DNA from: Sphingomicrobium sp.
GTDB lineage: Bacteria > Pseudomonadota > Alphaproteobacteria > Sphingomonadales > Sphingomonadaceae
Length of the DNA stretch: 64,000 nt
Assembly: GCA_036563485.1 (NCBI GenBank)
Contig: DATCMI010000001.1
Coordinates: 1,551,501-1,615,500, forward strand
Direction: 5' to 3'
Shown piece after piece: positions 2 to 43,398 of this stretch. How positions within the stretch are numbered: position 1 is the first letter of the stretch; each line of letters opens with the position of its first letter. A program made the translations under genes and the position numbers. A model generated the notes under the pieces. The model ran no database searches. It saw nothing but the letters and a program-made list of their open reading frames with translations, and had not been told where the DNA came from.

Positions 2-1063
2 GACCTGCAGTCCGGCGCGAGCTTCGACGGCAGCGGCTGGGCAGCGGTCAGCAAGTTCGTCCGCCTCACGCTTCAGTCGCTTGCGCTCGGCCTTGCCGCG
101 CTTCTCGCCATCGATGCCAAGATCAGCCCCGGCGCGGTGTTCGCGTCGAGCTTCATCGTCGGCCGCGCGCTGGCTCCGATCGACCAGCTGGTCGGAAGCT
201 GGAAGGCGATCGTCCAGGCTCGCGGCGCATTCCGCACGCTGAAGGACCTGTTCAGCGAAACCGCCGAGCAGCGGTCGCTCACGCAATTGCCGCCGCCGAC
301 CGGCCGCCTCGATGTCGAGAATCTGACGGTCGCGGATCCCAATGGGCGGGTGATCATCGGCAACATCAGCTTTCAGGTGAAGCCGGGCGAGATGATCGCG
401 ATCATCGGCCCCAGCGGCGCCGGCAAGTCGACGCTCGTTCGTGCGCTCGCCGGCGCAGTCGTGCCGCACGCCGGCACGGTTCGCTTTGACGGCGCGGATC
501 AGCGCAACTGGGACCCTGAACGGCTGGCCGAACATGTCGGCTTCATGCCGCAGGAAGGCTCGCTGTTCGCCGGCACCGTGAAGGAAAATATCGCCCGCTT
601 CACCGATCGCCTCGGGGAAGATCCCGCGGAGATCGATGAAGCCGCTGTCAAGGCAGCGCAACTTGCCGCCGCGCACGAGATGATCCTGCGCTTCCCCGGC
701 GGTTACGATTATCAGCTGGGGCTTGGCGGCCGCGGCCTGTCTGCCGGGCAGGGCCAGCGCATCTCGCTCGCTCGCGCGCTGTTCCGTGATCCGAAATATC
801 TGATTCTCGACGAACCGAACGCCAGCCTCGACGCCGAAGGCGACCAGCAGCTGGTGCAGACGCTTGAGAATGTGAAGAAGCGCGGCACGACCATCCTCGT
901 CGTCGCTCATCGCCTCAGCGTGCTGCCGATCGTCGACAAGCTGCTGGTCATCCAGGAAGGCCGGCTGGCGATGTTCGGCGAACGTGACGAAGTCCTGCGC
1001 AAGATCGCGCCGCCGCAGCCGCCTGCCGGCCGCGTGGTCGCACGAGGGAAGGTCGAACAATGA
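2..1063 (+). CDS. Type I secretion ABC permease/ATPase (5' truncated)
   Basis: This is the C-terminal part of a type I secretion inner-membrane ABC protein of the PrtD/HlyB kind, which couples ATP hydrolysis to one-step export of a C-terminally signalled protein. The reading frame is open from base 2, so the gene starts before the window. The first ~60 codons encode the last membrane helices (a hydrophobic LTLQSLALGLAALLAI stretch). The nucleotide-binding domain follows, with Walker A GPSGAGKST (about bases 408-434), the signature LSAGQGQRISLARAL (about 738-782) and Walker B YLILDEPNASLD (about 798-833). Its stop overlaps the next gene by ATGA, so the adaptor is translationally coupled. A TolC-type channel lies 2.4 kb downstream and could complete the exporter. 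The substrate is not visible. Family assignment is firm; PrtD rather than HlyB type is inferred from the adaptor and the lack of other domains in view. Confidence 0.92.
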   Translation, partial: DLQSGASFDGSGWAAVSKFVRLTLQSLALGLAALLAIDAKISPGAVFASSFIVGRALAPIDQLVGSWKAIVQARGAFRTLKDLFSETAEQRSLTQLPPPTGRLDVENLTVADPNGRVIIGNISFQVKPGEMIAIIGPSGAGKSTLVRALAGAVVPHAGTVRFDGADQRNWDPERLAEHVGFMPQEGSLFAGTVKENIARFTDRLGEDPAEIDEAAVKAAQLAAAHEMILRFPGGYDYQLGLGGRGLSAGQGQRISLARALFRDPKYLILDEPNASLDAEGDQQLVQTLENVKKRGTTILVVAHRLSVLPIVDKLLVIQEGRLAMFGERDEVLRKIAPPQPPAGRVVARGKVEQ

Positions 1064-35823: not shown

Positions 35824-36624
35824 ATGTCCGACTTCGTCTCTTTCGCACTGAAGCTTGCCGAAGCGGCGCGGCGTGAGACGCTCGGCATCGGCTCCGGCGG
35901 CGCGGTCGATAACAAGGCAGGCGAGGGCGCTTTCGACCCGGTAACGGAAGCCGACCGCAACGCCGAGCGCGTGATGCGCGGCCTGATCCGCGCGGCTTAC
36001 CCGGATCACGGGATCAGCGGCGAGGAATATGGCCACGAACCGGGCGCCGGGCCCTACGCCTGGAGCCTCGACCCGATCGACGGCACCCGCTCCTACATCT
36101 GCGGCCTGCCGACCTGGACGACGCTGATCGCGCTGCTTGATCGCGACCTACCGGTGCTCGGAGTCATCGACACGCCCCGCCTCGACGAAATCTATGTCGG
36201 GTCCGAAGATGGCAGCTGGCTGCGCACCGGTGAAACGCGGCAGCAGCTACGCGTCAGCGGCTGCACGGATTTAAGCGAGGCGCGGGTCGGCACGACCGAC
36301 CCGTTCCTGTTCGCTGGCGACGCACTGGATCGCTTTCGCCAGCTTGCAATCGCCGCGCGAACGACGCGCTACGGCCAGGACGCTTATGCCTATGCGCGGC
36401 TTGCGGCCGGCGGCATCGACCTGGTCGTCGAATGCGGGCTCAAGCCGCACGATTATAACGCGCTGATTCCCGTCGTCCGCGGCGCCAGCGGTACCTTCGG
36501 AGACTGGTCGGGCGGGAGTAATTTTGGCGCCGGCAACGTCATCGCCGCCGCCACCCGAGAGCTCTACGAAGCCGCGGTCGAGATCATGACCTGTGCGAAT
36601 GCCGCCGCTGAAGCACATCCATGA
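35824..36624 (+). CDS. hisN: Histidinol-phosphatase, inositol monophosphatase type
   Basis: HisN removes phosphate from histidinol phosphate. The 266-residue protein has the IMPase metal motifs DPVTEADR, ISGEEYG and DPIDGTRSYICG. It also has the HisN-type LKPHDYNALIPVVRGASG in place of the WDxAAG of inositol phosphatases. It lies tail-to-tail with the his operon and overlaps hisIE by 41 bases. Because the fused HisCB next door lacks a HAD phosphatase domain, this enzyme is needed to complete the pathway. Confidence 0.9.
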   Translation: MSDFVSFALKLAEAARRETLGIGSGGAVDNKAGEGAFDPVTEADRNAERVMRGLIRAAYPDHGISGEEYGHEPGAGPYAWSLDPIDGTRSYICGLPTWTTLIALLDRDLPVLGVIDTPRLDEIYVGSEDGSWLRTGETRQQLRVSGCTDLSEARVGTTDPFLFAGDALDRFRQLAIAARTTRYGQDAYAYARLAAGGIDLVVECGLKPHDYNALIPVVRGASGTFGDWSGGSNFGAGNVIAAATRELYEAAVEIMTCANAAAEAHP

Positions 36625-37225
36625 TGTCGGTCCAACTCATGCCTCTGGCTTCGAGCAGCACCGCGAGGTGGTAAAGCAGGTCTGCGGCTTCCTCGGCGCA
36701 GCCCGCTGAGTCCCGCGTCACGGCCGCAAGCGCCAGTTCGACGCCCTCCTCGCCGATCTTCTGCGCGATCCGCTCCGTCCCCCCATCGAGCAATTGCCGC
36801 GTGTAGCTCGCCTCATCGCCGCCCGCCGCACGCTCCGCAACGACGCGGGATAAGTCAGCAAGCCAGCCCGGCCCTTCGACCCATGCGTCGCCGAAGCAGC
36901 TCCGCGTGCCCTGGTGGCAGGTCGGCCCCTGCGGGTCGGCAAGCACGAGCAAGGCATCGTCGTCGCAGTCGCTGGCGACGCTATGGAGTTTGAGCACATT
37001 CCCGCTGGTCTCGCCCTTGCGCCACAGCCGTTGCTTGGACCGGCTGAAGAAGGTGACAAAGCCGCTCTCGAGCGTCGCCTCGAGCGCCGCCGGGTTCATG
37101 TAACCGACCATCAGGACACGACCGGAGCCAGCATCCTGCACGACGGCGGGCAGCAGTCCGTCCATCTTCTTCCCGGCGAGGCTGCCGATGTCCTCGCGCG
37201 TCAGCGGCGCATTTCGATCCCGCAT
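36584..37225 (-). CDS. hisIE: Bifunctional phosphoribosyl-AMP cyclohydrolase / phosphoribosyl-ATP pyrophosphatase
   Basis: This 213-residue fusion carries out steps 2 and 3 of histidine synthesis. The N-terminal HisI half has [44 protein letters not shown] and the zinc Cys residues of [12 protein letters not shown]. The C-terminal HisE half has [20 protein letters not shown] and [17 protein letters not shown]. Most alphaproteobacteria keep hisI and hisE apart. It is the last gene of the operon and its start overlaps hisF by 25 bases. Confidence 0.95.
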
Positions 37226-37965
37226 GTCGCGAGGAACTCCTTCAGATCGGGGATGGCGATGATCCGGTCGTGGAACACGGTGGCCGCAAGCGCGCCGCTC
37301 GCGCCGGCTTCGAACGCCTCGCGGAAATGCGCGGGCTCGCCGGCCCCGCCGGACGCGATCACCGGCACCGTCGCCGCATCGACGATCGCCGCCGTATGCT
37401 CGACGTCATATCCGCTGCGCACACCGTCACGGCGCATGCAGTTGAGGACGATCTCGCCTGCGCCGCGGTCCACCGCCTCGCGGACCCAATCGAGCGTCTC
37501 ACGGCGCGTGTCGCGCGTGGCCTCCGGGTCGCCCGTATATTGCTTCACCCGGTAGATGCCGTCCTCTTCGAAGCTGTCGACCCCGACGACTACGCACTGC
37601 GCGCCGAAGTCGCGGGCAAGTTCGTCGATCAGCGACGGGCGCTCCAGCGCGGGCGAGTTGATCGACACTTTGTCGGCGCCCGCGTCGAGGCAGCGTGCGG
37701 CGGCATCGCGGCTGCGGATGCCGCCCGCGACCGCGAAGGGGACGTCGATCACCTCGGCAATCCGCCGCACCCAATCGAGGTCGAGGCTGCGGCCTTCGAC
37801 GCTCGCGGAGATGTCGTAGAAGACCAGCTCGTCGGCGCCTTCGTCGCGATAGCGCATCGCCTGTTCGACAATGTCGCCCGCGTCCCGATGGTCGCGGAAC
37901 TGCACGCCCTTGACCACGCGCCCGTCCTTGACGTCGAGGCAAGGGATGATCCTACGCGCGGGCAA
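37201..37965 (-). CDS. hisF: Imidazole glycerol phosphate synthase, cyclase subunit
   Basis: HisF forms the ring of IGP using ammonia from HisH. The 254-residue TIM barrel starts [20 protein letters not shown], with catalytic Asp in CLDVKDG, and contains [27 protein letters not shown] and [20 protein letters not shown]. The start is a TTG at 37965, which gives the exact family N terminus and overlaps the hisA stop; upstream in-frame starts run through hisA. Confidence 0.95.
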
Positions 37966-38671
37966 GGCTGACCGCCTCCTCGAGTGCAATCCGGCCTTCC
38001 CACAACGCCTTGCCGACGATCGCTCCGGCGGTGTGCAAGCGGCGAAGGTCGTCAAGCGACGACACGCCGCCGGACGCCTGAACGGCAAGGTGAGGCAGTC
38101 GCTCGACGGCTTCGTCCAGCAGCTCGAAGTTCGGACCGGCGAGCTCGCCGTCACGGCCGATGTCGGTCAGCAGCAGGTGACGCGCTTCGGGGAAGCGCTG
38201 GGCCGCCGACCACAAGCTGAGCCCGCTGTCCTCCGCCCAGCCGGACACCGCCACCTGCGGCTCGCCGCCGATCATCCGAACGTCGAGCGCCAGCGTGATC
38301 CGGTCGGCGCCGAACTCCCCGACCCATCCGCGCACGAGCTCAGGGTCACGCACGGCAAGGCTGCCGAGGACCACCCGTTCAACGCCGCTGTCGAGCAGCG
38401 CTTCAACTTGTTCGCGCGACCTAACGCCGCCGCCGACCTGCAGCTTGAGCGGCGTTGCCGCGGCGAGGCTGCCAACGAGATCGTGCTGCGCCGGGGCGCC
38501 GGCCCGCGTGCCGTCGAGATCCACGACATGCGCCCATTCGGCGCCAGCATTGGCAAACGCCCGCAGCGCGTCGGCGGGCTCGGCCGGGTACAGCGTGGCT
38601 TCGTCGAACCGCCCCTGGCGCAAGCGCACGATTTGACCGCCCATCAGGTCCATCGCCGGATAGACGATCAT
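37952..38671 (-). CDS. hisA: ProFAR isomerase (phosphoribosylformimino-AICAR ribotide isomerase)
   Basis: This 239-residue TIM barrel opens the ribose ring of ProFAR. It begins [18 protein letters not shown]; Asp of AMDL is the catalytic base (AIDL in most). It also has [28 protein letters not shown] and [15 protein letters not shown] with the acid Asp. The ATG at 38671 overlaps the hisH stop by four bases. Confidence 0.94.
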
Positions 38672-39246
38672 GCGAGGAAGCTTTCGAGGAAGCGCGCGCC
38701 GGCAGGGCCCGACCTCTCCGGGTGGAACTGGGCACCGGTCCAATTGCCCTGACGCACAACCGCAGGGATCGGGCGGCCGTAATCCGCCACTGCGACTGTC
38801 GCGGTTCCGTCGTCGCAGGCGAAGCTGTGCGCGAAATAAAGATAGTCGCCGTCGTCCAGCCCGATCGAGCCGTCGCGTACCGCCACCCGGCTCCAGCCCA
38901 TGTGCGGCACCGGCCTGCCGGGTGCCGGCTCCAGTGCCCGCACGCTCCCCGAGATAATCCCGAGGCACCCCGTGTCCGCTTCGTCGCTGCGCTCGAACAG
39001 CAGCTGCATGCCGAGGCAAATGCCGAGCGCCGGCTGCTTTAACGCGACCAGCGTTCGGCGAAGGCCGAGCGCCTCGATCCGCTCCATTGCGTAGCCCGCC
39101 GCGCCGACTCCCGGCAGGATCACCTCGTCCGCGCCCCCGATGGTCTCGGCATCGGCGCTGACCACCGGCTCGATCCCGAACCGCTGCATCGCCAGCCGTA
39201 CCGATCCGATGTTGCCGCAGCCGAGGTCAACGATGACCAGCTTCAC
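38668..39246 (-). CDS. hisH: Imidazole glycerol phosphate synthase, glutaminase subunit
   Basis: HisH supplies ammonia to HisF. The 192-residue class I amidotransferase has the triad Cys in GICLGMQLLFE and His-Glu in QFHPERSG. It also has the PGVGAAGYAM oxyanion-strand and VPHMGWSRV motifs. It overlaps hisCB and hisA by ATGA. Confidence 0.96.
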   Translation of the reverse strand: MKLVIVDLGCGNIGSVRLAMQRFGIEPVVSADAETIGGADEVILPGVGAAGYAMERIEALGLRRTLVALKQPALGICLGMQLLFERSDEADTGCLGIISGSVRALEPAPGRPVPHMGWSRVAVRDGSIGLDDGDYLYFAHSFACDDGTATVAVADYGRPIPAVVRQGNWTGAQFHPERSGPAGARFLESFLA

Positions 39247-40901
39247 AACATGCCTTTGGTGCTCGGCAGTTCGGTGGCATTGCCTTCGCGGCGCACCGCC
39301 TGGCGAAGTGCGCGGCCAAACGCCTTGAAGCAGGCTTCGGTCTTGTGATGGTCGTTGTCGCCGCTGACGCTGACTTGGATCGCCGCGCCCATGCTGTCGG
39401 CCAGGCTGCGGAAGACGTGGGCCGTCATTTCAGTGGGATAGGCGCCGATGTGGCTTGCCGCGAACGTGCCGTCGAAGCGGCTGAAGGGGCGGCCCGACAG
39501 GTCGATGAGCACCTGCGCGCTTGCCTCGTCCATCGGCAGCGCGAAGCCGAAGCGGCCGATGCCACGCTTGTCGCCGAGCGCCCGCGTGAGCGCCGTTCCA
39601 AAGGCGATGGCGCAATCCTCGATGCTGTGGTGGCCGTCGATATCGAGGTCGCCGTTGCACTTCAGCGTCATCGCAAAGCCGCCATGCGCGGCGACCTGGT
39701 CAAGCATATGGTCGTAAAAGGGAATGCCGGTGTCGATCCGCCGCGGCTCACTGCGGTCAAGGTCGACGGCGACGGAGATCTTCGTCTCTTTCGTGTCGCG
39801 CACCACTTCCGCCCTACGCGCGGCGCCGGTGGGCGTACCGACATCAAACGCTGCGAGCGCTGCTGCATTCTCTTCCGGCGTGCCGATCGTCAGCCGCAGT
39901 CCGCCAGGCGCGGCGTTGGACCGAAAGCGGACCCGAATGCCAAGCCTGCGTAGCTTCGCCGCGAGCGACTCCGGATCCTCGACTTCAAGGAACAGGAAAT
40001 TGCCGCCGCCCGACCGAACGGACTTCACGATCGGCGACGCGGCGAGAAGCGGCGCGAGCCGCTCGCGCTCGGCGATGATCGTCGCAATGCGCTCGAGGTG
40101 CAGCGGCCGGCGCGCGGGGGCCAGTGCGGCCACTGCGGCTTCGATCGACAGGGTCGGAAGCGGGTAGGGGGGCAAAGCCCGTGCGGCGATGGCGATAAGC
40201 TCCGGCTCGCCGATCGCACAGCCGGTGCGCGCGCCCGCAAGTCCGAACGCTTTCGACAAGGTCTTCAGGACCACGAGGTTGGGTCGCTGAGCCGCTTCGC
40301 CTGCCAGGCTCGGCACCGCCGAGAAGTCGAGATAGGCTTCGTCGACGACGATAAGCGTATCCGGCAGCGCCTCGGCAATGGCGAGGGCATCCTCCGGCGC
40401 CACTTCGTTCCCGGTCGGGTTGTTGGGCGAACAGATGAAGGCGACCTTCACATTGCCAGCTCGCCGTACCGCGTCGATGTAGGCGCCGCACTCGAAAGCG
40501 AAGGCCTCGCCCAGCGGCACCTCGACGACCGCCGCACCCTGCACCCCCGCAAAGTGCGCATATGCCGAAAAGGTCGGCGTGGGCACCGCGATCGCATCCC
40601 GGGCGGGCTGGCAGAAGGCGCGCACCAGCATGTCGATCGCATCGTCCGCCCCGCGCGTGACGATCACATTGTCTGGTCCGACGCCGTAGAGCGCCGCCAT
40701 TGCCCGCGTCAGCCCCTGGGGCCGTGGCTCGGGATAGCGGTTGAGCCCGCGCGCCAGCGGCCCGTCCGACAACGGCGGGAACGGGTTCTCGTTGGCGTCG
40801 AGCTTGATGGCGTCCGGCCCGAAGTCGGATCCGCCGGCGATGTCGAAAGGCTCGAGTGCAAGAATCTCGGGCCGGGCGAGCCTTTGTGCGGTGGAGGTCA
40901 T
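39243..40901 (-). CDS. hisCB: Fused histidinol-phosphate aminotransferase / IGP dehydratase (HisC-HisB)
   Basis: This 552-residue protein joins two pathway enzymes that are not consecutive. Residues 1-353 are a complete HisC: LDANENPFPP (33-43), NPTGNEV, DEAYLDF, the PLP lysine Lys217 in KTLSKAFGLAGART, and the terminal LRLTIGTPEEN. After a ~7-residue link (VGTPTGA), residues 361-552 are a complete IGP dehydratase: VDLDRSEPRRIDTGIPFYDHMLDQVAAHG, DGHHSIEDCAIAFG and the metal motif HHKTEACFKAFGRALR. The phosphatase (HAD) domain of enterobacterial HisB is absent. Both halves keep all visible catalytic residues. No stop codon or in-frame restart occurs at the junction. It overlaps hisD by one base and hisH by four. 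Confidence 0.93.
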   Translation of the reverse strand: MTSTAQRLARPEILALEPFDIAGGSDFGPDAIKLDANENPFPPLSDGPLARGLNRYPEPRPQGLTRAMAALYGVGPDNVIVTRGADDAIDMLVRAFCQPARDAIAVPTPTFSAYAHFAGVQGAAVVEVPLGEAFAFECGAYIDAVRRAGNVKVAFICSPNNPTGNEVAPEDALAIAEALPDTLIVVDEAYLDFSAVPSLAGEAAQRPNLVVLKTLSKAFGLAGARTGCAIGEPELIAIAARALPPYPLPTLSIEAAVAALAPARRPLHLERIATIIAERERLAPLLAASPIVKSVRSGGGNFLFLEVEDPESLAAKLRRLGIRVRFRSNAAPGGLRLTIGTPEENAAALAAFDVGTPTGAARRAEVVRDTKETKISVAVDLDRSEPRRIDTGIPFYDHMLDQVAAHGGFAMTLKCNGDLDIDGHHSIEDCAIAFGTALTRALGDKRGIGRFGFALPMDEASAQVLIDLSGRPFSRFDGTFAASHIGAYPTEMTAHVFRSLADSMGAAIQVSVSGDNDHHKTEACFKAFGRALRQAVRREGNATELPSTKGML

Positions 40902-42187
40902 CAGACGATCTCCAGCCGCGCATCGGCGGCGCGCGCGTGTGCCTCGAGGCCCTCCATCCGTGCCAGGAGCGCCGCCGGCTTGGCAATGCGGCGCGCAGCG
41001 TCATCGGTGAGCGACTGGACCGTCATCGCTTTCATGAAGCTGTGGACGCCAACGCCGCTCCACACGCGCGCCGCGCCGTCGGTCGGCAGCACATGGCTCG
41101 ACCCGGCGAGATAGTCGCCGAAAGTCTCGGCGACAGCCCGTCCGGCGAACACCGCCCCGGCGTTGCGGATCAGCGGGACGAGCTGTCCAGGCTGTGCGAC
41201 CGCCAGCGAAAGATGCTCGGGCGCGTAGAGGTTCGCGACCTCGATCGCCTGTGCCAGGTCCGCCGTGACGATCACCCGCGCCTGCTGGAGCGAAGCGCGA
41301 GCCGTTTCGGCGCGGGGCAAGGTCGCAACCAGCGCCTCGACTTCGTCGACCACGCGCTTTGCCAAGATCCTCGAAGGCGTGACCAGCAGCACTTGCGCCG
41401 CGGCATCATGTTCTGCCTGGCTCAGCAGGTCGGCTGCGACCAGCCGGGGGTCTGCAGTATCGTCCGCGACAACCATCAGCTCGCTAGGGCCCGCCGGCAT
41501 ATCGATCGCCGGTCCGCCGGCCGCACTCGCAACCTGCCGCTTGGCTTCTGCGATCCATGCGTTGCCGGGCCCGCAGATCTTGTCCACCTTTGGGATCGAT
41601 CCTGCGCCGAACGCCAGTGCTGCAATCGCCTGGGCGCCGCCGACGGTCCAGATCGCGTCGATGCCGCTCAGCTCCGCCGCGAGCGCAACCAGCGGCGACA
41701 GGCTGCCGTCCGCGCTAGGCGGCGTGGTGACGACGATCTCTGTTACGCCTGCCACGCGGGCCGGGATCGCGAGCATCAGCAGCGTCGAAAAGAGCGGCGT
41801 CGCTCCGCCCGGGACGTAGAGTCCGACGCGGTCGATCGGCCGCCAGACCTTGCTGACCAGTAAGCCGGGCGCGGTTTCGACCGTCACGTCCGCAGGCCGG
41901 CTCGCCTCGTGGAAGGTTCGAATGTTTGCGGCTGCAAGCTCGATCGCGCCAAGCTCATCGGAAGAAAGCCTCCGTCGCGCTTCCGCAGCACCGCCTGCCA
42001 CCTCGACCAGCCGCGGCTCGGCGCCATCGATCTCGCGCGCGCGGTCGCACAGCGCTTCCCATCCGCTTTGGCGCACGGCCGCCAGGATCTCGGCAACGGA
42101 CTGCTCCAGCGCCGCGTCGGTCCGCTGCTGCGGCCGCGCCAGCGCGGCTTCGCGGCCGCGCTCGTCCAGCGAGTTCCACTCGATCAT
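40901..42187 (-). CDS. hisD: Histidinol dehydrogenase
   Basis: HisD oxidises histidinol to histidine with two NAD. The 428-residue protein has PGGATPLFSTLLMLAIPARVAGV, the zinc/catalytic signature IDMPAGPSELMVVADDTADPRLVAADLLSQAEHDAAAQ, APEHLSL and the C-terminal GSSHVLPTDGAARVWSGVGVHSF. Length is typical. Confidence 0.96.
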   Translation of the reverse strand: MIEWNSLDERGREAALARPQQRTDAALEQSVAEILAAVRQSGWEALCDRAREIDGAEPRLVEVAGGAAEARRRLSSDELGAIELAAANIRTFHEASRPADVTVETAPGLLVSKVWRPIDRVGLYVPGGATPLFSTLLMLAIPARVAGVTEIVVTTPPSADGSLSPLVALAAELSGIDAIWTVGGAQAIAALAFGAGSIPKVDKICGPGNAWIAEAKRQVASAAGGPAIDMPAGPSELMVVADDTADPRLVAADLLSQAEHDAAAQVLLVTPSRILAKRVVDEVEALVATLPRAETARASLQQARVIVTADLAQAIEVANLYAPEHLSLAVAQPGQLVPLIRNAGAVFAGRAVAETFGDYLAGSSHVLPTDGAARVWSGVGVHSFMKAMTVQSLTDDAARRIAKPAALLARMEGLEAHARAADARLEIV

Positions 42188-42188
42188 G

Positions 42189-43079
42189 TCAGATCATCAT
42201 CTTTTCGATCGGCACGACCAGGATCGACGAGGCGCCGGCGCCTTTCAGCTTCTCCAGAGTCTCCCAGAACACGGCTTCCTGGCACACGGCGTGAACCGCG
42301 AAATGGCCCGCGCGGCCGTGCAGCGGGACGATGGTCGGCGCCTCTGCGCCAGGCAGGATACGCGTAATCTCCCGCAGCGACTCGCTCGCCGCGTTCAGCA
42401 TGATGTACTTCGAACCCTTGGTCGCGAGCACGCCGTCGACCCTCGTCATCAGCCCGTCGAGGATGGCAGTCCGCGTCTCGTCCAGCGGCTTGCGGGTGCG
42501 GATCAGCAGCGCCTGGCTGTCGAGCACCGTCTCCACCGGCCGCAGCCCGTTCGCTTCAAGCGTCGCGCCAGTCGACACCAGGTCGCAGATGAAGGGCGCG
42601 ATTTGCAGCCGCGGCGCCAGCTCGACCGCGCCGTTCATCTTCACCACCGATGCGCTGATCTCGCGCTCTTCGAGCCAGCGCCGCAGCAACCGCGGATAGG
42701 AGGTAGCGACCCGCTGGCCGGCCAATGACTCCGGTCCTTGATAAGCAGCGCTTTCCGGCGCCGCGATTTTGAGGCTGCACCCGCCGAAGCCGAGCTCGGC
42801 CACCATTTCGATCCGCTCCTCGTCTTCACCTAGCGCGAACTCCTCGAGCACGTTCTGCCCGACGATGCCGAGTTCGCACACGCCGTCGCTGACGAAAGTC
42901 GGAATGTCGTCGTCGCGTACGAACATCAGCTCGGCGGGGAAATTCTCGACCCGCGCAGTCAGGCTGTTCTTGGTGCTCTGGATGCGCAGGCCCGCATCGC
43001 GCAGAAGGTCGCGGCTGAGGTCCGAGAGCCGTCCCGATTTCTGCAGGGCGATGTGCAGCCGCGTCCGGTCAGCGAGCAT
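42189..43079 (-). CDS. hisG: ATP phosphoribosyltransferase, long form
   Basis: HisG starts the pathway by joining ATP and PRPP. The 296-residue protein is the long HisG with a C-terminal ACT-like regulatory domain (about residues 220-296, KYIMLNAASESLREITRILPGAEAPTIVPL), so it needs no HisZ. The catalytic part has LHIALQKSGRLSDLSRDLLRDAGL, DDIPTFVSDGVCELGIVG, RVATSYPRLLRRWLEE and DLVSTGATLEANGL. Many alphaproteobacteria use the short form instead. Histidine feedback inhibition is expected through the C-terminal domain. Confidence 0.95.
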   Translation of the reverse strand: MLADRTRLHIALQKSGRLSDLSRDLLRDAGLRIQSTKNSLTARVENFPAELMFVRDDDIPTFVSDGVCELGIVGQNVLEEFALGEDEERIEMVAELGFGGCSLKIAAPESAAYQGPESLAGQRVATSYPRLLRRWLEEREISASVVKMNGAVELAPRLQIAPFICDLVSTGATLEANGLRPVETVLDSQALLIRTRKPLDETRTAILDGLMTRVDGVLATKGSKYIMLNAASESLREITRILPGAEAPTIVPLHGRAGHFAVHAVCQEAVFWETLEKLKGAGASSILVVPIEKMMI

Positions 43080-43398
43080 CGCGCGCCTCCATGCGGTCGA
43101 TTGCCATTCGGTAGCCCTTGTGCGGCTCCTGCCGGAGGAACCGGCCGACGCGGACGATGGTCGTCGTGCTGACCCCCGTCGCTTCGTGGATGTCGCGGTA
43201 GGAGAGGTCGGTGCCGTCGAGCAGGCGAGCGACGTGCCAGCGCTCGGACAAGGTCCGGATCTCGGCCGGCGTGCACAGGTCCATCAGCAGCGCGCGCATC
43301 TCGGCGCGGCTCCCCGGCGTCAGCAGTGCGTCGCACAGCTGGTCGAGCAGCACTTCGGGATCGCGGGTTGGAACCGCCGTCGAAAGCTTCGTCTTCAC
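43069..43398 (-). CDS. TrpR-family (YerC/YecD) regulator heading the his operon
   Basis: This 109-residue protein has the TrpR-type helix-turn-helix: LMDLCTPAEIRTLSERWHVARLL then SYRDIHEATGVSTTTIVRVGRFLR, with the recognition helix in the latter. It is the first gene of the his operon and overlaps hisG by 11 bases. Related YerC proteins are proposed histidine-responsive repressors (HisR). A palindrome lies eight bases upstream of its start, over the predicted transcription start, suggesting that it represses its own operon when histidine is plentiful. The effector is inferred, not shown. Confidence 0.85.
   Translation of the reverse strand: MKTKLSTAVPTRDPEVLLDQLCDALLTPGSRAEMRALLMDLCTPAEIRTLSERWHVARLLDGTDLSYRDIHEATGVSTTTIVRVGRFLRQEPHKGYRMAIDRMEARDAR

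Follow-up and report, generated by a model that had tools for sequence, protein, structure and literature searches.

Why would a bacterium make the aminotransferase HisC and the dehydratase HisB of histidine synthesis as one polypeptide, and what keeps the two halves together? The question is raised by a gene, hereafter hisCB, in a stretch of 64,000 nucleotides (the window) from Sphingomicrobium sp. (Alphaproteobacteria; Sphingomonadaceae; assembly GCA_036563485.1, contig DATCMI010000001.1, positions 1,551,501 to 1,615,500 of the forward strand). Studies of gene fusion and of operon evolution use histidine synthesis as a textbook model, and because a HisC-HisB fusion joins adjacent steps, it makes channelling testable. 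Our analysis makes it quite likely that hisCB encodes a bifunctional enzyme for steps 6 and 7 that came out of a HisNB-type operon by in-frame deletion, HisNB being the E. coli-type enzyme in which a HAD histidinol-phosphatase is joined to imidazole glycerol phosphate (IGP) dehydratase. The gene and its parts lie as follows:

39243..40901, minus strand: hisCB, fused HisC-IGPD gene, 552 amino acids plus stop
39843..40901, minus strand: HisC (histidinol-phosphate aminotransferase) domain, residues 1-353
40251-40253, minus strand: codon of Lys217, the pyridoxal phosphate (PLP) lysine, within the HisC domain
39822..39842, minus strand: linker, residues about 354-360, without an ATG, GTG or TTG codon
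39246..39821, minus strand: IGP dehydratase (HisB) domain, residues 361-552, HisNB-like, without a HAD phosphatase

An earlier note on this DNA had read HisC and HisB as one frame crossed by a link of about seven residues, and both points were borne out. The frame opens with ATG and runs for 552 codons with zero internal stops; on inspection the junction DNA is stop-free. Pfam places Aminotran_1_2 at residues 31-351 (E = 9.8e-45) and IGPD (PF00475) at residues 391-532 (E = 5.4e-56), the latter domain scoring 189.1 bits against a gathering score of 27. The NCBIfam hisC model TIGR01141 covers residues 10-352 with 288.0 bits, above its cut-off of 276.55, and the HisC profile is filled to 346/349, while the NCBIfam HisB models listed begin at residues 360-364 and end at 551-552, leaving a linker of ~7-8 residues. 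No HAD family is among the Pfam matches of the protein, whose residues 1-353 are HisC, and the HisNB model NF003937 matches with 282.7 bits, under its cut-off of 443, over model positions 165-355 only.

The active sites appear complete in both halves. Lys217 aligns with the S-K of the E. coli HisC motif and, in an alignment of 61 fusion rows (out of 74 distinct fusions), K217 is invariant together with N37, Y56, D187, Y190, R225, R325 and R336, seven residues which we take to be active-site positions. In the dehydratase half, E372, H398, Q402, H406, H424, H425, E428, R450, D458, H495, H518, H519, E522 and K526 are likewise invariant, in keeping with the earlier claim that the PLP lysine and the visible catalytic residues are retained. 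By alignment, these dehydratase residues map onto named residues of Arabidopsis IGPD2, for which the parts of the structural paper seen by us name manganese ligands and catalytic, phosphate-site and water-binding residues (PMC4509728). A494, beside the metal ligand H495, was considered as a lost residue and rejected, as this position varies outside the fusions too. In the same alignment, loci L173 and L174 show Glu in the H495 column, presumably a one-residue misalignment.

With the 61 sequences as input, AlphaFold2 predicted hisCB as a two-domain monomer (mean pLDDT, the predicted local confidence, 91.2; predicted template modelling score 0.85), and Foldseek matched the model to HisC structures and, ranked lower, to an IGPD structure. 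To judge from these residues and domains, the hisCB product carries both activities in one protein: the C-terminal dehydratase would turn IGP into imidazole-acetol phosphate (step 6 of histidine synthesis), which the N-terminal PLP domain would transaminate to histidinol phosphate (step 7). Although the model made is a monomer, the assembled particle may be a 24-mer dehydratase core bearing HisC domains.

Distribution of the fusion and of the pathway

Following the earlier proposal that further HisC-HisB architectures be sought, we found fusions across the genus, family, order and class samples. An unbroken full-length fusion is carried by 47/71 genomes of the genus sample, including the window genome; in one more (G013) it is broken into pieces, and the other 23 lack it. 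The family sample has the fusion in 9/298 genomes, belonging to four genera, the order sample in 15/196 and the class sample in 11/385, two of them of the Caulobacteraceae form discussed below. At the phylum level, 62/398 genomes match at 1e-60, the majority of rows being separate HisNB or HisC genes, and matches across both domains in one frame come from the window genome itself, G1069, five Caulobacteraceae and G1081. A scan of named genomes gave at least 80 loci, and among the matches listed are Sphingomonas sediminicola, S. parva, S. deserti, Sphingosinicella, Sphingomicrobium, Peiella, a Brevundimonas metagenome-assembled genome (MAG) and SAR116/Puniceispirillum. Both domains share a frame in 65/139 loci, a set that includes the incomplete loci L078 and L085 and has some genomes twice, from two collections. 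Locus L078 (2494-4506, an Allosphingosinicella MAG) has a fused open reading frame (ORF) in which ~25 residues are missing from the end of HisC and ~50 from the start of the dehydratase, a gap that may be a deletion or an assembly error.

The fusion is thus spread through many alphaproteobacteria and is not a local event. That hisCB itself results from an assembly or sequencing error has practically no probability left, given the unbroken copies in those 47 genus genomes and in other genera and families, and this explanation was rejected.

Absence of the fusion accompanies loss of the pathway in the genomes tested: hisD was found in 0/17 fusion-less genomes (13 of the 23 in the genus and four from nearby genera) and in 7/7 of the other genomes given. 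The genus members without hisCB and hisD are G002, G003, G009, G010, G012, G020, G025, G034, G038, G039, G044, G046 and G070; part of the genus has lost histidine synthesis. Whole-protein and TIGR01141 searches of the window genome (one contig, 99.93% complete) turned up neither another HisB nor another dedicated HisC, the whole hisCB protein matching only itself and a distant aminotransferase (30%, at 1.1e-9) and TIGR01141 giving one match at E <= 1e-30.

Operon context and origin of the fusion

The window genome carries its his genes in one run on the minus strand, with HisN just beyond it on the other strand:

43069..43398, minus strand: YerC/TrpR-like putative regulator, upstream of hisG
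42189..43079, minus strand: hisG
40901..42187, minus strand: hisD, overlapping the hisCB start by one base (TGATG)
39243..40901, minus strand: hisCB
38668..39246, minus strand: hisH
37952..38671, minus strand: hisA, ATG at 38671
37201..37965, minus strand: hisF, start approximate
36584..37225, minus strand: hisIE
35824..36624, plus strand: HisN, inositol-monophosphatase-type, probable histidinol-phosphate phosphatase

According to the part of the source available to us, the enterobacterial his order is GDC[NB]HAF[IE] (PMC8305728), and the window has this order, except that C and B are joined and there is no HAD part. Two loci with a separate hisC and a HAD-IGPD gene (L104 and L107) read YerC-G-D-C-[HAD-B]-H-A-F-IE, an order that the window and many fused loci match, minus the HAD. 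The YerC/TrpR-like gene, which overlaps hisG and has a similar gene beside hisG in most of the fused loci displayed and in L104 and L107, is a possible his regulator. In two alphaproteobacterial operons (L169, near 7680, and L181, near 8141) a HisN-like ORF lies between hisD and hisCB.

The dehydratase half points the same way. It is 53-62% identical to the dehydratase parts of the listed long frames (357-786 aa), HAD-like residues preceding the dehydratase in all five that display this part among the six long frames inspected (L156-L161), and 40-50% identical to stand-alone HisB rows of its own family among the matches listed. Its best HisB model is the C-terminal half of NF003937, which scores 282.7 bits; the best of the stand-alone HisB models reaches 237.8. 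In a dehydratase tree of 76 rows, the fusions stand with HisNB rows (SH-aLRT support 94) and away from stand-alone sphingomonad HisB; the HisNB rows beside them are gammaproteobacterial where named, except Serinicoccus and two Balneolales rows. In the HisC tree, the fusions are likewise apart from stand-alone sphingomonad HisC. With HisC and HisB combined, a single clade of 36 fusions (chosen from the 74 distinct) is not rejected, the tree constrained to it being 6.3 log units better (approximately unbiased test, p-AU 0.68), and a clade of all 17 HisNB-operon rows that excludes the fusions is weakly rejected (p-AU 0.047). Between the domain models, the linker of these 36 fusions measures 10-17 residues.

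Several points weigh against descent from HisNB. The two Balneolales rows are labelled HisNB, and their HAD domain is presumed from the label. In the HisC tree, the main groups of fusions meet xanthomonad-type HisC at a fork that is not resolved, and in the dehydratase tree a clade of all fusions has a support of only 39 and includes the HisD-IGPD row L099. Ten gamma-type HisNB rows as a clade beside the fusions are not rejected in the combined data (p-AU 0.48), so that nesting of the fusions inside HisNB is no more than a possibility; the groups entered in these tests were picked after the trees were seen. In some fused loci (L141/L180, L179, L183 and L186) hisD does not stand between hisG and hisCB, and the gene order of L182 is loose. 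HisN, the gene that would supply the missing phosphatase, scores 255.0 bits with TIGR02067 (E = 7.3e-76), under the curated cut-off of 275.15.

The fusion could instead have formed from the lineage's own stand-alone hisC and hisB, without a HisNB ancestor. Placing the fusion dehydratases among stand-alone sphingomonad HisB costs 28.9 log units, yet is not formally rejected (p-AU 0.099), and G1081 (L173), a genome from outside the class, has a HisC-HisB fusion that belongs to another lineage and indicates that such fusions can arise in this way. Identity, model scores and operon order nevertheless favour HisNB, and the HisC half, too, is distant from its stand-alone sphingomonad counterparts; we regard this route as improbable. 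The G1081 fusion, an open frame of 594 aa with 49 residues between the domain matches (L155:1501-3282, L173:6778-8559), and the adjacent genes of G1016 (L174) were considered as relatives of hisCB and rejected, since the trees place them in another lineage.

A HAD-carrying HisNB ancestor is therefore the favoured origin and the best supported by these comparisons, which stop short of proving descent from it or a single origin. The earlier note had proposed a deletion that removed the end of hisC and the HAD part of a bifunctional hisB. The second half of this proposal is favoured, as the HAD is gone, the dehydratase is HisNB-like, and operon order and trees lean likewise; the first holds at most for the last few residues of hisC, since the domain covers almost the whole HisC profile, and the deletion would have taken little HisC and all of the HAD. 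In such a scheme, the ancestral state would be a compact HisNB-type operon, hisGDC[NB]HAF[IE]. An in-frame deletion, which we infer from the present arrangement, would have taken out the stop codon of hisC along with the segment of hisNB that encodes the HAD phosphatase, leaving HisC in the N-terminal place that the HAD domain had occupied. The dehydratase part of a HisNB-type gene lies within the frame and lacks a start codon, so that fusion would have been the simplest route that kept it translated.

The lost phosphatase would have been made dispensable by a resident inositol monophosphatase (IMPase)-type HisN, since this type is generally present in Sphingomonadales and Caulobacterales according to the portion of the survey consulted (PMC5516325). 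The stand-alone HisN that the earlier note had pointed to is indeed nearby, and its match is the best of the three that TIGR02067 has in the genome (8.4e-76 against 4.8e-44 and 8.7e-33). In two genus members lacking the pathway, the best HisN match reaches only 2.5e-48 and 3.4e-48.

A dead HisC half and the reasons for keeping a partner

In family f63, assigned to Caulobacteraceae through its member Peiella sedimenti (G1275), 62/199 sampled genomes match the query at 1e-60, and the figures below cover these 62. The PLP lysine is replaced in 61 of them: by Leu (35) or Met (1) in g158, by Phe (13) or Tyr (11) in g577 and by Leu (1) in g572. N161 and P162 of the NPTG motif are gapped in 36/36 dead g158 rows and in g572, and not in g577. 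All 62 dehydratases keep the eight metal ligands and K549. The dead-HisC loci are L233-L272, L274-L294, L148, L149 and L151-L153. The exception, Peiella sedimenti (G1275), keeps all HisC positions checked and has another complete HisC besides the intact fused one, a state that looks like the step preceding decay. Another complete HisC above the curated cut-off was also found in 59 of the 61 dead-domain genomes (54/54 and 5/5, in searches that covered all but G1321 and G1337 and looked at the HisC domain of those genes). This other HisC looks like the family's own gene, because members without the fusion have a complete one too (3/3).

The dead half nevertheless appears to be still under constraint. 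Over window positions 55-355 (301 residues in the window protein), 36 genomes keep 253-264 residues, 24 keep 280-286 and one keeps 202. By a counting method that is crude at such distances, with non-independent pairs and those of synonymous divergence (dS) outside 0.15-1.6 dropped, the median omega (dN/dS) of the dead region is 0.32 in g158 (628/630 pairs) and 0.28 in g577 (266/276 pairs), that of the attached dehydratases is 0.15 and 0.11, respectively, and in the window genus the intact HisC has 0.315 (622/666 pairs) and the dehydratase 0.20 (615/666). As the values are close, the dead domain appears to be about as constrained as the live one. A predicted model of one dead-domain protein has a mean pLDDT of 86.1 and still matches HisC structures.

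HisC is also not the only partner seen in this position. Sphingomonas parva (L063:1012-4650) and S. deserti (L067:1273-4650) have hisD-hisC-hisB as a single frame, with neither a stop codon behind hisD nor an ATG where hisC begins. On one MAG contig (L099:1-705), the HisD end runs straight into the dehydratase with HisC absent between, in a frame cut at the contig end, and a stand-alone-type HisC begins downstream of hisIE. Separately, a Balneolales contig (L109:1143-3683) holds HisD and HisC in one open frame of 847 aa from stop to stop.

What, then, keeps the partner in place? Channelling of imidazole-acetol phosphate between the two active sites would suit domains that perform consecutive steps and a fusion conserved over many Alphaproteobacteria. 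However, in the Caulobacteraceae a HisC half without its lysine stays attached to a dehydratase with all metal ligands, beside another complete HisC in every genome searched, and no sign of a tunnel or an interface emerged, the predicted model being a monomer. Because the dead half stays attached, channelling cannot be the sole reason for the partner; it may operate in the live form but is not needed to explain the fusion, and we consider it unlikely to be what the fusion is kept for. A second possibility is that internal initiation or proteolysis yields the two domains as separate chains in the cell. Residues 366 and 367 of the window protein are GTG codons, but across 82 fused loci the best position for a start-type codon at the junction has one in 14 and an ATG anywhere in the stretch occurs in 15. 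No conserved internal start was found at the junction in these loci, in a search of start codons and not of protease sites; internal initiation was rejected, and separation as a whole seems very improbable.

A less specific role for the partner deserves more weight than either, though we would still put it at somewhat below even chances: the N-terminal domain may be mainly a translation, folding or assembly module for the HisNB-type dehydratase, with its catalytic identity secondary. The partners observed are HAD, HisC, dead HisC, HisD-HisC and apparently HisD directly, and the dead HisC retains its residues, an omega near that of the intact domain and, in prediction, a HisC-like fold. Against this, HisB without a partner is common in bacteria, including most sampled genera of Sphingomonadaceae, the omega estimates have the limits given above, and the direct HisD-IGPD case is that one truncated MAG frame. 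The partner is kept where its activity is redundant and therefore would serve the dehydratase partly as a source of its translation start, folding or assembly. More tentatively still, a dehydratase of the HisNB lineage might need an N-terminal partner, passed from phosphatase to HisC to HisD-HisC, with dead HisC acting in the dehydratase particle as a structural or regulatory subunit. If true, dead HisC would be a pseudoenzyme not yet described, on which IGP dehydratase depends for its assembly or control.

The Caulobacteraceae homologues are a natural control, having the same architecture with one active site lost. Comparing live and dead forms can show whether the halves are fused for the sake of catalysis or for that of translation or assembly, which is a general question about fused enzymes.

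Comparison with known systems

The literature searched, in part as excerpts and with most subscription journals and protein-database annotations outside its range, did not describe a HisC-HisB fusion; such proteins may already be entered in databases. In the portions seen, a 2023 review names seven his genes with a fusion history, hisC not among them (PMC10138114), and a 2007 paper lists fused his genes likewise without hisC (PMC1963479). The "hisC-hisB" of PMC6432763 was rejected as a fusion, being, in the text seen, part of the Corynebacterium operon name hisD-hisC-hisB.

Like hisIE (itself present in the window operon), hisHF/HIS7, HIS4 (hisIED) and the multi-domain Acanthamoeba his gene, hisCB joins enzymes of the same pathway; those fusions, as described in the parts of the sources consulted, exclude hisC (PMC10138114, PMC6029752, PMC1963479). 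The actinobacterial hisD-hisC-hisB operon also has hisC directly before hisB, and in 14/16 loci (L086-L098 and L100, from Streptomyces, Kitasatospora and others) the two genes are in the same frame with one stop between. Unlike in hisCB, these genes are unfused and of different HisC and HisB lineages; query-spanning matches in Streptomyces and Kitasatospora were therefore rejected as fusions, hisC and hisB being merely adjacent. The stand-alone HisC and HisB of Sphingomonadaceae catalyze the reactions predicted for hisCB, but they are separate genes, with HisB 40-50% identical, as noted above, and HisC in another clade. The E. coli-type HisNB has a similar C-terminal dehydratase, the same operon slot and the same gene order. 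It differs from hisCB in its N-terminal partner, a HAD in the one and HisC in the other, the phosphatase of the hisCB genome probably coming from the separate IMPase-type HisN. Whereas HisNB joins steps 6 and 8 of histidine synthesis, hisCB joins the adjacent steps 6 and 7.

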